In this document: piece after piece, positions 19,635-26,456 of the stretch
Layout of the letters: every line of letters starts with the position of its first letter
Numbering within the stretch: the stretch's first letter is position 1
Assembly: GCF_030908215.1 (NCBI RefSeq)
Contig: NZ_JAVFJK010000001.1
Location: forward strand, 1-64,000
Length of the DNA: 64,000 bases
Source of the DNA: Sinomonas sp. ASV486
Lineage (GTDB): Bacteria; Actinomycetota; Actinomycetes; Actinomycetales; Micrococcaceae
Direction of reading: 5' to 3'
Made by a program: the position numbers and the translations under genes
Notes under the pieces: generated by a model
The model's input: the letters and a program-made list of their open reading frames with translations, nothing else
Databases searched by the model: none
What the model was told of the DNA's origin: nothing

Positions 19635-20720
19635 TCAGTTGCCGTTCTGCAGGTTCCGATCGGCAACGTACTGCGGCACCGTGCCGTTGGCCATCGCCGT
19701 GGCGAGGGCGTCCGTGGCCTCCTGGTTGAAGTTCACGATCGACTGCCCATCCGCGGACGTCCCGACCCCGGAGGTCGGAAGCGTGAAGCTCACGACGCTG
19801 GCTGGGCGGATGTCCTTCATCTCGAAGGCGAGCCCCGCGACTGCCTTCGAGTCGAGGCCGGTGTCCACCGTCACGAACGGCGAGAACTGGCTCACGATCT
19901 GGCTCACGGTGACCGGGTTCGCGAGCGTCTCCGGCTTGGCGATCTGCGCCATGAGGGCCTTGAGATATGTCTGCTGGTTCCGCACACGCTGGTAGTCGCC
20001 GTCGGCGAACGCGTACCGCTCGTGGACGAACGCGAAGGCGGTCTTCCCATCCATGTGCATCGGGCCTGCATCGAAGCGTAGGCCCGGGTTCTCGGCCATG
20101 GTCGAGGAGAACGGCCGCGTGACGTTCACCGTGACCCCGCCGACTGCGTCCGTGAGGCCCTTGAAGCCGTCGAATTCCATGAACGCGACGTGGTCGATGC
20201 GCTGGTGCAGGAGCGATTCGACGGTTTCGACCATGAGCGGGACCCCGCCGTACGCGAGCGCGGCATTGATCTTCGCCGTCCCGTGGCCGGGGATCGGCAC
20301 CCAGAGGTCCCGCATGATCGAGACGACGTACGCGTTCTTGCGGTCCGCGGGGACGTGCACGAGCATCATCGTGTCCGAGCGCTGGTCCGACGCCTGGCCG
20401 GACTCGGCCTGATCGATTGTGGCGCCGCGGCTGTCCGAACCGACGAGCAGGATGTTGACGGGCGTCTTACCGTTCGCCGCAGGGGTCGCCGAGGGGCGGG
20501 TCGATTCCTGGGGGAAGGCCGTGGCGATCTTCCCGGTCTTCGAATCGAACGTCCCGGCCACATTCGCGAGGTAGACGATCGCGACGACGGCAGCGAGCAC
20601 CACGACGCCTAGCGCGGAGAGGAGCACAATGAGCCCCGTTCGGCGTTTCGGTCGGCTCTGATCTTCGGATTCGGAGACTGTTCTAGTGGCCTCGTCCGGG
20701 GCCTGTCCAGGCAGCGTCAC
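19635..20720 (-). CDS. LytR-CpsA-Psr (LCP) family cell-envelope glycan ligase
   Basis: Membrane-anchored LCP enzyme that transfers lipid-linked anionic glycan or teichoic-acid-like polymers to peptidoglycan. 361 residues: a cytoplasmic N-terminus, one transmembrane helix (LIVLLSALGVVVLAAVVAIVYL, cited in part: VVVLAAVVAIVYL, about residues 30-52), then the extracellular LCP domain with VNILLVGSDSRG, RSDTMMLVHVPADRK, VSIMRDLWVPIPGHGTAKIN and FVHERYAFADGDYQRVRNQQ, holding the conserved Asp and Arg residues. GTG start at 20720 with a GGGAGGGGG ribosome site. It diverges from the PqqD/HprK-like/BY-kinase genes, which fits a joint role in envelope polysaccharide assembly. Confidence 0.92.
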   Translation of the reverse strand: MTLPGQAPDEATRTVSESEDQSRPKRRTGLIVLLSALGVVVLAAVVAIVYLANVAGTFDSKTGKIATAFPQESTRPSATPAANGKTPVNILLVGSDSRGATIDQAESGQASDQRSDTMMLVHVPADRKNAYVVSIMRDLWVPIPGHGTAKINAALAYGGVPLMVETVESLLHQRIDHVAFMEFDGFKGLTDAVGGVTVNVTRPFSSTMAENPGLRFDAGPMHMDGKTAFAFVHERYAFADGDYQRVRNQQTYLKALMAQIAKPETLANPVTVSQIVSQFSPFVTVDTGLDSKAVAGLAFEMKDIRPASVVSFTLPTSGVGTSADGQSIVNFNQEATDALATAMANGTVPQYVADRNLQNGN

Positions 20721-20828
20721 GGCACAGCCCCCTCCCTGTTTGGCGTCACGTTTGTGGATAGTATCAACATGACCCGTGTGCCATCGCCAGTATGTCGACG
20801 GACCGGAGGTCTGGTGCCACTACGTGGA

Positions 20829-20868
20829 CGGCCAGCATCTGGGCGGCCAGCACCTGGACAGCCAGCCG
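20829..20868. repeat. 15-bp minisatellite upstream of the PqqD-like gene
   Basis: GGCCAGCA/C units start about 20830, 20845 and 20860, a 15-bp step. It lies in the 193-bp gap between the divergent LCP and PqqD-like genes and stays open in several frames, which explains the long spurious reading frames there. Confidence 0.6.
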
Positions 20869-20913
20869 GCCACGCCACGGGCCGAACCGGCATGGGGGAC
20901 GAAGAGGGGACGC

Positions 20914-21276
20914 ATGGCACGCATCTGGCGCAGGGCCCGCCGTGTCGCGGAGGTTGTCTCCGACGACGGCGAGCGCGCTGCAGTGCTCAACGTTGACACC
21001 ACGCGGCCTATCGTCCTGACGGGCTCGGCCGCAAGGATCTGGTGCCTCGTGGACGGGCGGCGCACCGACGACCAGATCCATGCGGAACTCGGGTCTGACT
21101 ACGGCGCCGAGCCAGGGACCGCGTTGGATGAGGAAATCGGACGCGAAGTCTCGCGCTTCCTCGCCGAGCTCGCCTCGCGCCGGCTCATCGAAGAGGGTCC
21201 CGCTGACGAAGGCCTCGCCGAGGACGCCTTCGGCGAGACGAATTCCCCCCGCCACCCCGTAGGACCAGACGCATGA
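20914..21276 (+). CDS. PqqD-family protein
   Basis: Small 120-residue protein with the PqqD fold: VLNVDTTRPIVLTGSAARIW, then LVDGRRTDDQIHAELGSDYG and EVSRFLAELASRRLIEEG. PqqD domains (RiPP recognition elements) bind leader peptides, but stand-alone members next to HPr-kinase-like genes also occur in polysaccharide loci. The ATG at 20914 has AGAGGGG 5 nt upstream and is preferred to an in-frame GTG at 20776 that would translate the 15-bp minisatellite. It overlaps the next gene by 4 bp (ATGA). No precursor peptide gene or radical-SAM/B-protein partner was seen nearby. Function unknown. Confidence 0.78.
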   Translation: MARIWRRARRVAEVVSDDGERAAVLNVDTTRPIVLTGSAARIWCLVDGRRTDDQIHAELGSDYGAEPGTALDEEIGREVSRFLAELASRRLIEEGPADEGLAEDAFGETNSPRHPVGPDA

Positions 21277-22574
21277 CGGCGCCGATGCGGCTCGAGCTGA
21301 TCGGCGTGCCGGCCGTGGTCCACTGGGGCCGCGGGATCGGCGACGAGGACGCCGCACGGCTTGCGGCCGCCTGGTCGCGGTGCCATGCGGTGTTCGACGA
21401 CTCCCCCGATCACGAGGCGCCCGACGACGACGCGCTCGACGACGACAACCCGCCCGAGGACAACGCGCTCGCGGCCGCCGCGGCCGGCAAGGACTCACCC
21501 GCGGAGAGTCCCGAGCCCGCCGATACGGGAGGGTTCAGCGTCCGGGCTGTGCTCGCCGTCGGCGGCGCGGCACCCGTGGCCGTCGAGGCCGCGACGGTCC
21601 CTGAGTTCGCCTCCTACCTCACCTCGAGCCTGACCGTCGCGGCGATCGAGGAACGTGCGGGCGAGCTCATGATGCTCCACGCCTCCGGCCTCGCGGAGCC
21701 CGGAACGGGCCGGACCGTCGCACTCGTGGCCCGCTCCGGCATGGGCAAGACCACGGCCACACGTCAGCTGGCGACCCGGTTCGGCTACGTGAGCGACGAG
21801 ACCGTGGCGGTCGACCGCTCGGGCCGGATCCTCCCGTACCCCAAGCCCCTCTCCGTCATCGACGATCCTCCGCCCGCGCCGAAGGTCCAACGCGGGCCCG
21901 ATGAGCTTGGGCTCGCCCCGGCACCCGCCGGGGCGACACTCGCCGGCGTCGTGCTCCTGGAACGGCAGGCGGGCCTCGAAGCTGCGGTCGTCGAGCCCGT
22001 GGGGCATGCGGACGCGATCACCGACCTCACGCCCCAGACGTCCGCGCTGGCAAGGATCGAGCGGCCCCTCGCCTGGCTGTGCGGGATCCTCGACGCGTGC
22101 GGCGGTGCGGTCCGGGTGCGCTACACCGAGGCCGAGCAGCTTGCCGCCGTCCTGCCGGATGTGATCTCACTCCCCGCGCTCGCGCCTTCATGGCGGGACG
22201 CGCACGACGGCGCGCTGGTCGCCTCGGGCGCGACGGTCCCGCCCCTCGCCAAGGCGTCCCCGGGTGGCGCCGCCGGCCCGGGTCCGGGACGGGTCCGCCG
22301 CCGTGAGGTCGTGGATGCGGTTGCGGTCCCCGGCGCCGACGGGGGAGCGGCAGAGGTGCTCGTGCTCGCCGGACCGACGCTCCTGCGCTTGGGCGGCATT
22401 GCACCGGCGGTGTGGGACGCCCTCGCGGGGACAACGGGGGGAGCGGGATTGACCCGCGCCGACCTCGCGGCTGCCCTCGAGGTCAGCATCGGACTCCCTG
22501 ACGGCTACGAGCCGATCCTTGATGCCGCGTTGGCGGAGCTCAAGGCCAGCGGGCTCGTCGACGTCGTCCTGTGA
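21273..22574 (+). CDS. HPr-kinase-like P-loop protein
   Basis: 433-residue soluble protein. An acidic disordered insert covers about residues 45-85 (repeated Asp/Glu/Pro). A Walker A motif LVARSGMGKTTATRQLA lies at about residues 150-166, followed by YVSDETVAVDRSGRILPYPKPLS, which resembles the C-terminal kinase fold of HPr kinase and HprK-related proteins. The C-terminal ~120 residues return to a PqqD/winged-helix style (LRLGGIAPAVWDALAGTTGG and LAAALEVSIGLPDGYEPILD), so the protein may carry its own PqqD-like domain. It is coupled to the PqqD gene and followed 91 bp later by the BY-kinase. Likely a small-molecule or protein kinase in an envelope pathway; substrate unknown. Confidence 0.65.
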   Translation: MTAPMRLELIGVPAVVHWGRGIGDEDAARLAAAWSRCHAVFDDSPDHEAPDDDALDDDNPPEDNALAAAAAGKDSPAESPEPADTGGFSVRAVLAVGGAAPVAVEAATVPEFASYLTSSLTVAAIEERAGELMMLHASGLAEPGTGRTVALVARSGMGKTTATRQLATRFGYVSDETVAVDRSGRILPYPKPLSVIDDPPPAPKVQRGPDELGLAPAPAGATLAGVVLLERQAGLEAAVVEPVGHADAITDLTPQTSALARIERPLAWLCGILDACGGAVRVRYTEAEQLAAVLPDVISLPALAPSWRDAHDGALVASGATVPPLAKASPGGAAGPGPGRVRRREVVDAVAVPGADGGAAEVLVLAGPTLLRLGGIAPAVWDALAGTTGGAGLTRADLAAALEVSIGLPDGYEPILDAALAELKASGLVDVVL

Positions 22575-22607
22575 CGGGTGCTTTCGCCGGTCCAATATCG
22601 GCTCCGG

Positions 22608-22613
22608 TAGACT
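22608..22613 (+). promoter_or_regulatory. -10 box before the BY-kinase gene
   Basis: TAGACT, 7 nt before an in-frame ATG (22621) and 52 nt before the preferred GTG start (22666). No clear -35. Confidence 0.35.
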
Positions 22614-22665
22614 TGCGCCGATGATCTGTGCCCTGTGCGGGCCACGACGATGGGGAGCAACGAGC

Positions 22666-25038
22666 GTGGAACAAGAGCCCGAGGGCCGGCAGGACGGGAA
22701 ATCGCTGACGTTGACGGATGGCCTTCGGCTCGTCCGGCGCTACTGGATCGGCATCATCGCCTTGGTGGCGCTCTCTACCGCCGTCGCGTTCGGATGGTAC
22801 TCGATCCAGCCGAAGATGTACGCCGCCGACTCCAGCGGGATCGTCGTGGCAGGCGGCGCCGACAACCTCGGACTCTCCCTCGCGGGGGACAACCTGGCCA
22901 AGGCGAAGGTCAAGTCGTACAAGTCGGTCGCCGAGTCGCTCCTCGTGGCCAATCGTGTGGTCAAGGACCTCGGGCTCACCTCGGCCGGCGCGGCCATCTC
23001 CGGCGTGAGCGTGACGATTCCCGCCGACACCGCAGAGCTCCACGTCTCGGCGACCTCCACCGACCCCCAGATGGCGCAGAAGATCGCCGACGAGTGGGTC
23101 GTTGCCCTGGCCGCCCAGGTGCGCGAACTCGAGCAGGCCAGCTCGAGCTCACCGACGGCCGAGCCTGCCGTCCGCGTGGTTCCCCTCGCGAAGGCGTCCC
23201 TGCCCGGCGCCCCGGTCTCCCCGAACCTCAAACTCACCCTCGGCATCGGTGCCGCTGCCGGCCTGCTCCTCGGTCTGGGCTACGCACTGCTGCGCGGTTT
23301 CCTCGACCGTCGCATCCGTACGGCCAGCGAGGCGGAACGGACCGCTGGGCACCCTGTGATCGGAACCCTCCCGAACGATGCGCGTCTCGCCGAGGGCAGC
23401 CACATCCTCGATGCGCCCAGCACGGGCGCCCGCGGCAGCCACGCCATGGGGGAGGCATTGAGGGAGCTGCGGACCAACCTCCAGTTCATCGACGTGGACA
23501 ATCCCCCGCGCATCCTCCTCGTGACGAGTTCCGTCCCCTCCGAGGGGAAGTCCACGGTGATCGGCAACCTCGCAGCCACGATGGCCTCGGCGGGCGAGAA
23601 CGTCGTGGTGGTCGACGGCGACCTCCGCCGCCCGACCGTGCACGAGGTCTTCGGCGTGGTCCCTGGCGTCGGCCTCACCGACGTCCTCGCGGGCCGGGCC
23701 ACGGTCGACGACGTCCTGCAGTCATACCCAGGCCACCCGAACCTGCGCGTCCTCGGCGCCGGCCGGATCCCGCCGAACCCCTCCGAGCTCCTCGGATCGC
23801 GCATGATGAGCAACCTGCTCACGCACCTCGCCGAGGATGCCGTGGTCCTCGTCGACGCACCGCCGCTGTTGCCCGTGACCGACGCCGCGGTGCTGTCCCG
23901 CTCGGCGGACGGCACGATCATCGTTGCCCGCGTCGGCAGGACGACGACGGACAGTCTCGAGCGCGCCGTCGGGAACCTCGAGCGGGTGCGGGGCAAGGTC
24001 CTCGGGATCATCCTCAACGGGGTGTCGACCAAGGGCCCCGAGTCCTACACGTACGGCTACTACGGGACGTACTCCGAGCATCAGCGCGGCCACGAGAAGA
24101 TCCGCTCCAAGGGCAAGGTCAAGGTCAAGAAGCCGCGTCCCGCTTCCGCGCCCGCTGAGGTCGCCGTGCCGGCGCCCGCCTACGCGGCGGATCAGGTTCA
24201 CGCGGCCCCTGCGGCGGACTTCCTCGAGCAGGCGGCCCCGGTGGGGGACTATCGTGCAGAGGATGCGCCCTCTGAGGACTACCGCGCCCAAGCCGGTCCC
24301 GTCGCGGAGTCCTTCGTGCCGGACTCATCCGGCGCACACCATGCGGTGGACGTCGAGGACGAGCCAGCAGCTCTTGCCATGCCGGTTCCGCTGCACGGCG
24401 CGCACACCAACGGCGAGGTTCGGGCCTTCCCGCCGCCGCAGCTCGTGGTCTCAGACTACGTGGGCCCCGACCAGCGAGCGTCGGACCACGGCGGGCAGGC
24501 GGACGGGCTTCCGTTCGGGAGCTCACCGGAGGCTGAGGCCCTTGGTGCCACGGACCTCGACGCAGCTGAGCCCGACGCAGTTGACCATGAAGCAGTCCGC
24601 CACGAAGCAGTCCATGGGGACGCTGTGCATGGGGACGAACCGCGCTTCGGCCCAGTGGACCACGACGCACGGGACGATGACGCCGTGCGTGGGGTGGCCG
24701 CAAAGCGCCAGGACCGTTCGCGCGGCTGGCTGCACTTCACCACGACACGGCCGCAGCCGATCATCTCAGCCACCCCCCTGAGCCTCTCTCTTGCCCCCGA
24801 GGGGCCCGAACTGCCGGCCGAGTCCTCGGCCCCCTCAGTGGCGGCTGCCCCGAAAGGCGAGGACGGGGGTACCGGCGTGGACCGAGAAGGGGCTGCGCTG
24901 GAGACGCCCGGGAAGGACGCTGAGTCGCGCGCAGACCTCCCCGCCGACGACACCGTCACGGACAACGCGGCCGAATCGCCCACTGAGGGAGAGCTCTGGC
25001 TGCCGGTGCAGGTCCGCGGGCGCCGGTCGGCGGGCTGA
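22666..25038 (+). CDS. Polysaccharide co-polymerase / BY-type tyrosine autokinase
   Basis: Membrane protein of about 790 residues controlling exopolysaccharide or capsule chain export. It has an N-terminal Wzz part with two membrane helices (about residues 21-40 and 188-208) around an extracytoplasmic loop, then the cytoplasmic BY-kinase: Walker A SVPSEGKST with Lys295, Walker A-prime VVVVDGDLRRP (Asp317/Asp319) and Walker B VVLVDAPPLLP. A Tyr cluster SYTYGYYGTY lies at about residues 459-469, the likely autophosphorylation site. A further ~320-residue acidic, Ala/His-rich tail with short repeats (DHEAVRHEAVHGDAVHGDE) is unusual. GTG at 22666 has GGGGAG 8 nt upstream; an in-frame ATG at 22621 lies 7 nt after TAGACT and could be a leaderless alternative. 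The convergent tyrosine phosphatase probably reverses its phosphorylation. Confidence 0.88.
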   Translation: MEQEPEGRQDGKSLTLTDGLRLVRRYWIGIIALVALSTAVAFGWYSIQPKMYAADSSGIVVAGGADNLGLSLAGDNLAKAKVKSYKSVAESLLVANRVVKDLGLTSAGAAISGVSVTIPADTAELHVSATSTDPQMAQKIADEWVVALAAQVRELEQASSSSPTAEPAVRVVPLAKASLPGAPVSPNLKLTLGIGAAAGLLLGLGYALLRGFLDRRIRTASEAERTAGHPVIGTLPNDARLAEGSHILDAPSTGARGSHAMGEALRELRTNLQFIDVDNPPRILLVTSSVPSEGKSTVIGNLAATMASAGENVVVVDGDLRRPTVHEVFGVVPGVGLTDVLAGRATVDDVLQSYPGHPNLRVLGAGRIPPNPSELLGSRMMSNLLTHLAEDAVVLVDAPPLLPVTDAAVLSRSADGTIIVARVGRTTTDSLERAVGNLERVRGKVLGIILNGVSTKGPESYTYGYYGTYSEHQRGHEKIRSKGKVKVKKPRPASAPAEVAVPAPAYAADQVHAAPAADFLEQAAPVGDYRAEDAPSEDYRAQAGPVAESFVPDSSGAHHAVDVEDEPAALAMPVPLHGAHTNGEVRAFPPPQLVVSDYVGPDQRASDHGGQADGLPFGSSPEAEALGATDLDAAEPDAVDHEAVRHEAVHGDAVHGDEPRFGPVDHDARDDDAVRGVAAKRQDRSRGWLHFTTTRPQPIISATPLSLSLAPEGPELPAESSAPSVAAAPKGEDGGTGVDREGAALETPGKDAESRADLPADDTVTDNAAESPTEGELWLPVQVRGRRSAG

Positions 25039-25071
25039 GCGGCACCTCCATCGCGGCGTCGGCCGGAGGAT

Positions 25072-25671
25072 TCAGCCCCGCGCGACGAGGTCTGCGCGCC
25101 CGAAGATGACCTCGAGCGCGGGTACGAGCTCATCGGTCATCTGCGACCACACCTCGGGCCCCAGCCGATAGGGGTCGACGACGTCGTTCTCGCCCTCAGA
25201 TGCGGGACTGTCAGCGCTCTTGGCCTCCCAGGCCCTCGCGACCAGATGACGCCACGCCCCGCGGGGCTCGCCGTCCTGGGCCAGAGCATGCTCGGACGGA
25301 TCCACGGGCAGCGTCGCGACGAGCCGCGCGAACTCGCGGAGCGTGAACGTCCTCTTCAGCGCGGGATGCAGCCGCAGGATCGATGCTCGATGCCGCTCGG
25401 CGAGAATGAGGACCAGATCCGCCCGCGCGACCATCGACTCGGTGAGCTGCCGCGCGGTGAAGCCTTCGAGCGTCGAGCCGAATCTCGTCGCGATCGCCGC
25501 TGATTCCGGCTGGGCCGGTTCGCCGACGAGCGCGCGCGTCCCGGCGCTGTCGACGACGAAGTCTCCCGGCGCGATCTCGGCGAGGGCGTCACGCAGCACT
25601 GCCGCGGCGACAGGCGAGCGGCAGACGTTCCCAGTGCAGACCACCAGAATGCGGAACGGATCGTCGGTCAT
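25072..25671 (-). CDS. Low-molecular-weight protein-tyrosine phosphatase
   Basis: 199-residue cytoplasmic phosphatase. The P-loop ILVVCTGNVCRSP gives Cys12 and Arg18 of the CX5R signature right at the N-terminus; the general-acid Asp is in NDVVDPYR near the C-terminus. Its pairing with a BY-kinase is the standard arrangement in bacterial exopolysaccharide loci, here convergent with only 33 bp between stops. ATG at 25671 is preferred: a TACGTT box lies 7 nt upstream (leaderless), while the open frame further up has no start signals. Confidence 0.9.
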   Translation of the reverse strand: MTDDPFRILVVCTGNVCRSPVAAAVLRDALAEIAPGDFVVDSAGTRALVGEPAQPESAAIATRFGSTLEGFTARQLTESMVARADLVLILAERHRASILRLHPALKRTFTLREFARLVATLPVDPSEHALAQDGEPRGAWRHLVARAWEAKSADSPASEGENDVVDPYRLGPEVWSQMTDELVPALEVIFGRADLVARG

Positions 25672-25678
25672 CCCGTCC

Positions 25679-25684
25679 AACGTA
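25679..25684 (-). promoter_or_regulatory. -10 box of leaderless tyrosine-phosphatase transcript
   Basis: TACGTT on the minus strand, 7 nt before the ATG at 25671. Confidence 0.35.
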
Positions 25685-25715
25685 GCACCGCCGGAGGGCG
25701 CGGGGGCGCGCCGTC

Positions 25716-26456
25716 TCAGCGCGGTACCCCGATCCTGTCGAGCGGCCACACGCGGAAGATGACCTGCCCCACCACGGCCGATGCAGCCGCCGTCCGCACG
25801 CACGTGGCCGAGGCCCCGGAGCCCGCGGGGTTGGATCCAGTTGAGCCGGCATAGCGGCACTGGGCAGCCGAGTCCTCGGAGTTGGACCGATGGTCTCCCA
25901 GGAGCACGAGCTGTCCGGCCGGCACGAGAGTCTCGGGGAAGCAGCGCGGCGAGCGGGGCGCCGTCGTGCAGTCGAGGCGGCCCGGCCCGAACGGGAGGTC
26001 CTGGTACACATAGGGCTCATCGATCGGCTTGCCGTCGAGCAGGAGCCGGCCCTGGACGTCACAGCAGCTGATGCGCTGCCCGCCCACGGCCGCCACACGC
26101 TTGACGATGTAGTCCTCGTTGGACGGTCCGAGGCCCGTCAGGTCGCCGAACCCCCTCACGAGCGCCGAGAGAGGGTTTGCGGCCGGCGGGAGCGCGCCCG
26201 GCCAGCCGGGAGGGCGCACGACGGCGACGATGTCGCCCGGGCGCGGCGCGGCGCCTCCCACATAGGCGAGCCTGTTGACGAGGATGCGGTCCCCGCCCCA
26301 CTGTTGGCTCTGCAGCGTCTGCTCCATCGATCCGGACGGGATGCGCCCGATCTTGACGACGAAGGCCTGCACGAGGCCGACCACAGTCAGGCCGACCGCG
26401 AGGTTGAGGATGATCGCTGCCCAGAGCGGGAGCGGCCGGCGTCGGGGGCGCGTCAC
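25716..26456 (-). CDS. lepB: Signal peptidase I
   Basis: Membrane-bound serine protease removing Sec/Tat signal peptides outside the membrane. 246 residues. One N-terminal transmembrane helix (about residues 11-33) precedes the catalytic motif GRIPSGSMEQTL with Ser43; the Lys motif is DYIVKRVAAVGG near residue 117; the C-terminal box is LVLLGDHRSNSEDS. GTG start at 26456 with TAGCCT 6 nt upstream, consistent with leaderless mRNA. It diverges from paaA and lies 44 bp from the phosphatase gene. Confidence 0.93.
   Translation of the reverse strand: MTRPRRRPLPLWAAIILNLAVGLTVVGLVQAFVVKIGRIPSGSMEQTLQSQQWGGDRILVNRLAYVGGAAPRPGDIVAVVRPPGWPGALPPAANPLSALVRGFGDLTGLGPSNEDYIVKRVAAVGGQRISCCDVQGRLLLDGKPIDEPYVYQDLPFGPGRLDCTTAPRSPRCFPETLVPAGQLVLLGDHRSNSEDSAAQCRYAGSTGSNPAGSGASATCVRTAAASAVVGQVIFRVWPLDRIGVPR

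Follow-up and report, generated by a model that had tools for sequence, protein, structure and literature searches.

Among described systems, the linear polyphosphorylated peptides (LPPs) of Bacillota are the closest to the genes considered here. In a Paenibacillus LPP (PMC13381572), a RiPP recognition element (RRE; RiPP, ribosomally synthesised and post-translationally modified peptide) binds a YxxP motif in the leader. Ser 3 of the core is the target of an HprK-like kinase, and the signal peptidase that takes off the leader acts poorly on unphosphorylated peptide. The precursors have 35-200 residues with conserved N-termini and variable C-termini, and the pathway is called restricted to Bacillota in the same paper. 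HprK-like kinases also tailor lasso peptides: in a second report (PMC9266682), these have a conserved His-Lys-Asp-Asp set and, for pseudomycoidin, the addition of hexoses to phospho-Ser is reported for PsmN. A block of six genes from Sinomonas sp. ASV486 (Micrococcaceae; RefSeq assembly GCF_030908215.1) was compared with these systems. It lies in the first 64,000 nucleotides of contig NZ_JAVFJK010000001.1, the stretch of DNA analysed here and referred to as the window. An original prediction, made from the letters of the window alone, had described a possible regulatory module for envelope glycan assembly. The block instead looks like part of a system not yet described, in which a tag common to the N-termini of exported proteins is the target of a peptide-binding domain, a kinase and an additional signal peptidase. 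Our preferred explanation, with a probability of about 0.55, is that it is the enzyme half of an exopolysaccharide (EPS)-linked system in Micrococcales by which exported proteins of one class are processed.

The tag is a common N-terminus, SRRxVxKGAAWSxPVIAAAxAAPAAAAS, found on exported proteins whose remainders differ. It consists of a twin Arg, W-x-x-P-x-[IVL], AxA and then a nearly invariant Ser, where the similarity stops. It first came to light in the sequence upstream of PqqD in five loci from a single genus (L049, L051, L053, L055 and L057; in L051 the first PqqD is a short remnant), each of which has a tagged protein there; scanning all loci yielded more. The original prediction had proposed a search for small open reading frames (ORFs) with conserved leaders nearby. 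Clustering of small ORFs across loci returned mostly antisense and housekeeping ORFs.

Among 65 non-redundant tagged examples, the twin Arg, the Trp and the first Pro are present in all 65, the second Pro in 64, and I, V or L at the last position of WxxPx[IVL] in 64. Ser directly follows AxA in 64, the position after it being variable. The tag profile was built from kinase-adjacent examples, first picked by a pattern of R, W or Y, and P in which the final Ser was not required. With the AxA-Ser columns removed from the profile, Ser was still found in 62 of 63 examples (the remaining one, from L180, has Asn), and with W, P and Ser masked the W..P pair was recovered in 63 of 63. In its twin Arg (65/65), hydrophobic stretch and AxA the tag resembles a twin-arginine translocation (Tat) signal peptide. 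Ten tagged proteins were scanned against each library: none matched an NCBIfam model above cut-off, and the only Pfam models over cut-off were beta-propeller/repeat models in the mature part of one, leaving the tag uncovered. Tagged proteins reach 500 residues or more, and one has a DUF5122 beta-propeller. Searches of the open-access literature, mostly at the level of titles and abstract openings, turned up no description of the tag, nor of exported proteins as targets of an RRE-HprK system. A similar ending, ...GAGIL/NAGIL, was seen in several tagged proteins (L078, L088, L091 and L155), and L179 and L180 each have seven tagged proteins within 20 kb around the kinase.

The distribution of the tag follows that of the kinase encoded in the block. 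When the window kinase was used as query against 295 genomes of its family, matches were obtained in 87, of which 83 (E <1e-19) were counted as strong and four with E >1e-4 were dropped. The tag profile found the tag in 89 of the 295, with 1 to 17 matches per genome. Both were present in 81 genomes, the kinase only in 2, the tag only in 8 and neither in 204 (Fisher p 2e-60). In a sample of 396 genomes of the order (E up to 1e-4 for the tag and up to 1e-15 for the kinase) the tag was found in 89 and the kinase in 85: both in 80, kinase only in 5, tag only in 9 and neither in 302 (p 1e-66; the two samples overlap and both Fisher tests ignore kinship). Outside the window's family, the order sample has both in 66 genomes, spanning seven further families, the kinase only in 5 and the tag only in 8. 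Proximity was seen as well: 24 kinase copies were drawn from the best-listed rows, and of the 20 beyond the four from Sinomonas, 19 have a tag gene within 5 kb and the other has one within 11 kb. Tag genes occur in 27 of 50 non-Sinomonas kinase loci.

All six ORFs of the block as first noted were confirmed in place by ORF, Pfam and NCBIfam checks. The features, with positions in the window, are:

19635..20720 (-): LCP-family glycopolymer transferase, divergent from the PqqD operon (PF03816 E 2.5e-42; TIGR00350 above cut-off)
20914..21276 (+): stand-alone PqqD-type domain, read as an RRE (PF05402 E 1.6e-10); the likely ATG start at 20914 was chosen by alignment
21273..22574 (+): P-loop protein with an HprK/PEPCK fold and a C-terminal RRE, read as a Ser kinase (AlphaFold2 model, PDB matches)
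21735..21755 (+): P-loop SGMGKTT, residues 155-161 of the P-loop protein (S155, G156, G158, K159 and T161 in 60/60 rows)
21795..21800 (+): D175-E176 of the P-loop protein, placed by interpretation at the site of the Asp-Asp pair of lasso-tailoring kinases (60/60 rows)
22284..22571 (+): RRE/PqqD domain at the C-terminus of the kinase, residues 338-433 (hhalign against the stand-alone PqqD; TbiB1 as first PDB match)
22666..25038 (+): bacterial tyrosine kinase (BY-kinase)/polysaccharide co-polymerase, a putative EPS partner, likely GTG start at 22666 (TIGR01007 E 5.9e-48, above cut-off)
25072..25671 (-): low-molecular-weight (LMW) protein tyrosine phosphatase (PTP), likely ATG start (PF01451 E 4.7e-24)
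25716..26456 (-): signal peptidase I (LepB), the third of the genome, read as tag-dedicated (PF10502 E 3.3e-22; TIGR02227 above cut-off)

The PqqD and P-loop genes overlap by ATGA at 21273. Past its kinase domain the BY-kinase continues for about 320 residues (24068-25038, +), a tail rich in acidic and His-Asp repeats; most of the relatives listed are much shorter.

By sequence models the P-loop protein is barely recognised. Its match to TIGR04352 (HprK-related kinase A) has E 1e-4 and 21.6 bits, against a cut-off of 200, and its Pfam matches up to E 1 include no HPr-kinase model. Searching PDB sequences with the kinase profile gave generic P-loop ATPases, and a fold search was needed. The AlphaFold2 model (predicted local distance difference test score, pLDDT, 86.3; 19 aligned sequences) matched PEPCK 1xkv with Z 13.0 and a root-mean-square deviation (rmsd) of 4.5 over 246 residues, and HprK/P 2qmh with Z 9.8 over 138 residues but an rmsd of 9.9. 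Foldseek also matched the model to HprK/P chains (probability up to 1.00, E ~1e-3). In 60 of 60 aligned kinase rows, that of the window included, W34, H136, S155, G156, G158, K159, T161, Y172, D175, E176, K191, P192, S194, K204, P209 and R231 are invariant. H136, K159, D175 and E176 can be set beside the His-Lys-Asp-Asp of the lasso kinases, with Glu as the last residue, the pairing being an interpretation.

The C-terminal 96 residues of the kinase matched the stand-alone PqqD by hhalign (96.9%, E 1.9e-10), a domain for which Pfam on its own is weak (E 0.15). The fold comparison of the full kinase model hardly covers residues beyond 375, so this domain was modelled separately (pLDDT 94.7). Among PDB structures the lasso RRE TbiB1, solved with leader peptide, came first for this model (E 0.025, probability 1.00, TM 0.64). 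Both RRE/PqqD copies, the stand-alone one and that ending the kinase, thus match by profile or fold. The HprK-like nature of the P-loop protein and its second PqqD-like domain, both proposed at the outset, are therefore borne out.

A scan of named genomes gave 17 kinase loci, in Sinomonas, Rathayibacter, Phycicoccus, Microbacterium, Agromyces, Nocardioides and one further actinomycete. The nearest named relative is Sinomonas cellulolyticus (L081), with 65% identity in the best segment. These 17, together with 40 loci hand-picked from the family kinase matches and the window itself, form a non-random set of 58 loci, several of them short, which was surveyed with profile thresholds set by the analyst. 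A BY-kinase was found in 47, PTP in 33, LepB in 30, a tagged protein in 27, NTP_transf_5 in 23, a stand-alone PqqD in 20, a Bac_transf sugar transferase in 17, MauE in 16, a UGD-like dehydrogenase and LCP in 13 each, and VanZ and DUF4012 in 9 each; 51 have at least one EPS marker. All eight Sinomonas loci have matches of the POP, LCP, PqqD, kinase, BY-kinase, PTP, LepB and paaA profiles together in one stretch, with LCP at the equivalent position in each. The kinase is thus conserved far beyond the strain (83/295 family genomes), mostly beside EPS genes, and neither a strain-only neighbourhood nor a lack of HprK or PqqD folds was found.

Domain fusions were seen in some loci. A second PqqD domain is joined to the kinase in four (L084, L085, L086 and L096; hhalign 98.0%, E 1.8e-13). 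In two genomes of another family, an LMW-PTP domain is encoded in the same open frame as the kinase (L179:10623-12053 (-) and L180:5102-6565 (+); PF01451 E 3.5e-11 and 1e-13), the RRE-like C-terminus sitting in a separate ORF. The usual Cys-x5-Arg site was not seen by eye at the start of either of these PTP domains.

Comparison within the genus sets the kinase apart from the BY-kinase. The kinase, PqqD, the tag and the third signal peptidase are all present in the same 8 of 15 Sinomonas genomes. The other seven have two signal peptidases each and no kinase profile match better than E 6.5e-7, which is a P-loop-region match common throughout the list. The BY-kinase occurs in 14 of the 15 and is at least 58% identical in 13. 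These counts bear on the regulatory module first proposed, in which the kinase and PqqD would act on the BY-kinase, LCP or other EPS proteins. Such a role would suit the EPS markers in 51 of 58 loci, the PqqD that often immediately precedes the BY-kinase and the frame shared by PTP and kinase in two genomes. It leaves the tag unexplained, however, and six Sinomonas genomes have a BY-kinase match (58-61% identical in five) without the kinase, PqqD or third signal peptidase. As the distribution of the BY-kinase differs from that of the kinase, which tracks tagged exported proteins, the regulatory role was set aside and is considered very improbable.

In six of the eight Sinomonas genomes the tag gene and the block share a contig but lie ~226-271 kb apart, too far for close linkage to account for their occurring together. 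The same distance counts against passive association, in which the tag would be a Tat signal variant of proteins sharing an EPS lifestyle, with PqqD and HprK acting elsewhere. Twin Arg and AxA are usual in signal peptides, tag genes often lie within EPS loci and tag-only genomes exist, all of which passive association would accommodate. Tat export, on the other hand, leaves the conservation of W, P and Ser unexplained (a comparison without a generic-Tat control profile), and genomes with the BY-kinase but without the kinase are also without the tag. Passive association is therefore regarded as unlikely.

Two of the three signal peptidases in the window's genome form a tandem pair on contig 16, whose neighbours suggest a housekeeping role; the third is the divergent one in the block. 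The LepB tree has just two housekeeping rows, both from one genome and on long branches. The single tag match is an ORF at C1:276,503-277,093 (-), 255 kb from the block and near an EPS locus. This ORF is likely shorter, with a GTG start after GGAG and ~174 amino acids. The single NTP_transf_5 lies at C1:304,240-305,190, and between the two are a sugar transferase, an epimerase, an acyltransferase, an ABC transporter, glycosyltransferases, a cytidylyltransferase, NeuB and Wzy_C. The system in this genome looks complete but divided between two places. The original statement that no leader peptide or glycosyltransferase is present is thus true of the block; it does not extend to the contig, which has the tagged protein and, just beyond it, a glycosyltransferase-rich locus.

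Substrate processing tied to EPS loci is favoured because the kinase, PqqD and third LepB share 8 of 15 Sinomonas genomes, against 14 for the BY-kinase, and because the kinase tracks the tag. The joined domains of some loci, and the published LPP pathway with its RRE, HprK-like kinase, signal peptidase and NTP transferase encoded in capsule loci, also speak for the preferred explanation. The proposed mechanism starts from the folds, the shared tag and the genome-wide co-occurrence of tag and kinase, joined within one genus by PqqD and the third signal peptidase. The WxxP segment would be the binding site of the RRE domains, both stand-alone PqqD and kinase C-terminus, just as [Y/W]xxP is for the RREs of lasso and LPP pathways. 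The HprK-like kinase, through H136, K159, D175 and E176, would phosphorylate the invariant tag Ser in the cytosol, and the tagged protein would be exported, probably by Tat. Cleavage at AxA|Ser by the dedicated signal peptidase would then leave the modified Ser at the N-terminus. Where NTP_transf_5 occurs, it may build on the phosphate, by analogy with PsmN adding hexoses on phospho-Ser, and the BY-kinase, LCP and PTP would be EPS partners.

Besides the reservation on the Fisher tests, several points weigh against this explanation. All of its chemical steps are inferred, and the kinase has an Asp-Glu pair, not Asp-Asp. The stand-alone PqqD was found in just 31 of the 295 family genomes, and LepB in only 30 of the 58 loci. 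All eight Sinomonas loci are without a tag gene inside 10 kb, and the split of the genus into genomes with and without kinase and tag may be a single event. The tag-only genomes of the family sample (8 of 89) comprise two weak matches (G026 and G096), two with kinase fragments (G061 and G083) and four that are unexplained (G074, G077, G174 and G266). None of the eight tag-only genomes in the order sample outside the family has a kinase at E 1e-6, and one of them, G588, has 10 tag matches. Kinase-only genomes are found too, two in the family sample and five in the order sample. In the former (G124 and G198) LepB and PTP lie near the kinase, yet there is no tag match. At the five order loci (L174-L178) the kinase relatives stand apart from any EPS, LepB or tag setting; no match of 16 other profiles was found within ~10 kb of the kinase, so these kinases may be paralogues with another role. 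Kinase fragments in two tag-bearing genomes, at L181:9811 and 9936 (+) and L182:9823 (-), are possibly decayed copies.

The inferred mode of action is like that of the LPP pathway, applied to whole exported proteins. The two (LPP as described in PMC13381572) share a discrete RRE, an HprK-like kinase, a signal peptidase, an NTP transferase and polysaccharide loci, as well as a conserved N-terminus with a variable C-terminus and a [Y/W]xxP motif. The spacing from the aromatic residue to Ser is 17 in the tag and 18 in LPP, counted from the numbering of the paper. The counterpart of the LPP NTP transferase is NTP_transf_5, in 23 of 58 loci and once in the window's genome. One ABC transporter in the EPS locus of that genome is at most a candidate for the MsbA-like exporter of LPP. 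The LPP peptidase is of the archaeal, SipW-like type, whereas the best NCBIfam match here is bacterial signal peptidase I, above cut-off. Only the [Y/W]xxPx[LVIFA] part of the LPP leader given there, YxxPxVLxHQxIxFETxxS, fits the tag. As the peptidase type and the full leader motif disagree, the block was not filed as LPP. Kinase-RRE fusion, twin Arg, AxA, whole-protein substrates and occurrence in Actinomycetota are features found here and not in LPP.

The shared parts, leader motif and EPS setting could also mean that the loci make small modified peptides, as an actinobacterial branch of the LPPs or phosphorylated lasso peptides, with the tagged genes encoding precursors that are trimmed to small products. 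LPP precursors of 35-200 residues with conserved N- and variable C-termini would agree with this. The length of tagged proteins (up to 500 residues or more), the DUF5122 beta-propeller, the twin-Arg type signal and the bacterial-type signal peptidase do not, and small products are judged unlikely. The phosphorylated lasso peptides paeninodin and pseudomycoidin (PMC9266682) share with the block a Ser-acting HprK-like kinase and a PqqD-type RRE, and have a nucleotidyltransferase that leads to hexose on phospho-Ser. Those pathways modify a small peptide at its C-terminal Ser; the candidate in the present system would be the N-terminal Ser of a whole protein. No macrolactam cyclase or B2 leader protease was among the Pfam and NCBIfam matches of the six block proteins, neither family having been searched for in the loci.

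In the PEP-CTERM/EpsH exosortase system (PMC1569441), too, exported proteins of diverse kinds, several in each genome, carry a short tag that tracks one enzyme family and EPS loci. There the tag is C-terminal and the enzyme a transpeptidase-like membrane protein, whereas the present tag is N-terminal and accompanied by RRE, kinase and signal peptidase. The comparison is an analogy only, exosortase not having been searched for. The HPr-rel-A system (TIGR04352 and TIGR04353, compared by model names) likewise pairs an HprK-related kinase with a PqqD-family partner. The block matches both models weakly, scoring 21.6 bits where the curated cut-off is 200, and 13.3 to 15.2 bits where it is 35, far below it in both cases. 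HPr kinase/phosphorylase itself has a like fold and P-loop, the C-terminal RRE domain being additional here.

The boldest reading, which context alone suggests, concerns anchoring to EPS. The invariant Ser of the tag, once phosphorylated with the help of RRE and kinase, might be converted by NTP_transf_5 to an N-terminal phospho-sugar through which the cleaved exported protein is joined to exopolysaccharide or another glycopolymer. We hold this new anchoring system to be a tentative possibility. It is equally tentatively that we would see in it an N-terminal, kinase-driven counterpart, in actinobacteria, of PEP-CTERM/exosortase and LPXTG/sortase. RREs and HprK-type kinases are known for small-peptide modification; here they track whole exported proteins in eight families of the order. 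If the preferred explanation is true, many hypothetical surface proteins would gain a function, as would the orphan PqqD, HprK-like and NTP_transf_5 genes and the additional LepB genes of EPS loci, and LPP-type logic would extend beyond Bacillota. It could explain how such bacteria modify or anchor many uncharacterised surface proteins, and a link between surface proteins and EPS would become testable in harmless soil bacteria.

Some further genes recur around the kinase. L051 has a tandem pair of kinase-BY-kinase units (L051:7789-14000). AraC-type regulators lie near the kinase in L062, L063, L068, L074, L078, L088, L091, L092 and L095, and MauE-like proteins recur near it both in these AraC-bearing loci and in others. 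DUF4012 proteins of ~600 residues recur in EPS loci, among them L084-L086, L089, L094 and L095.

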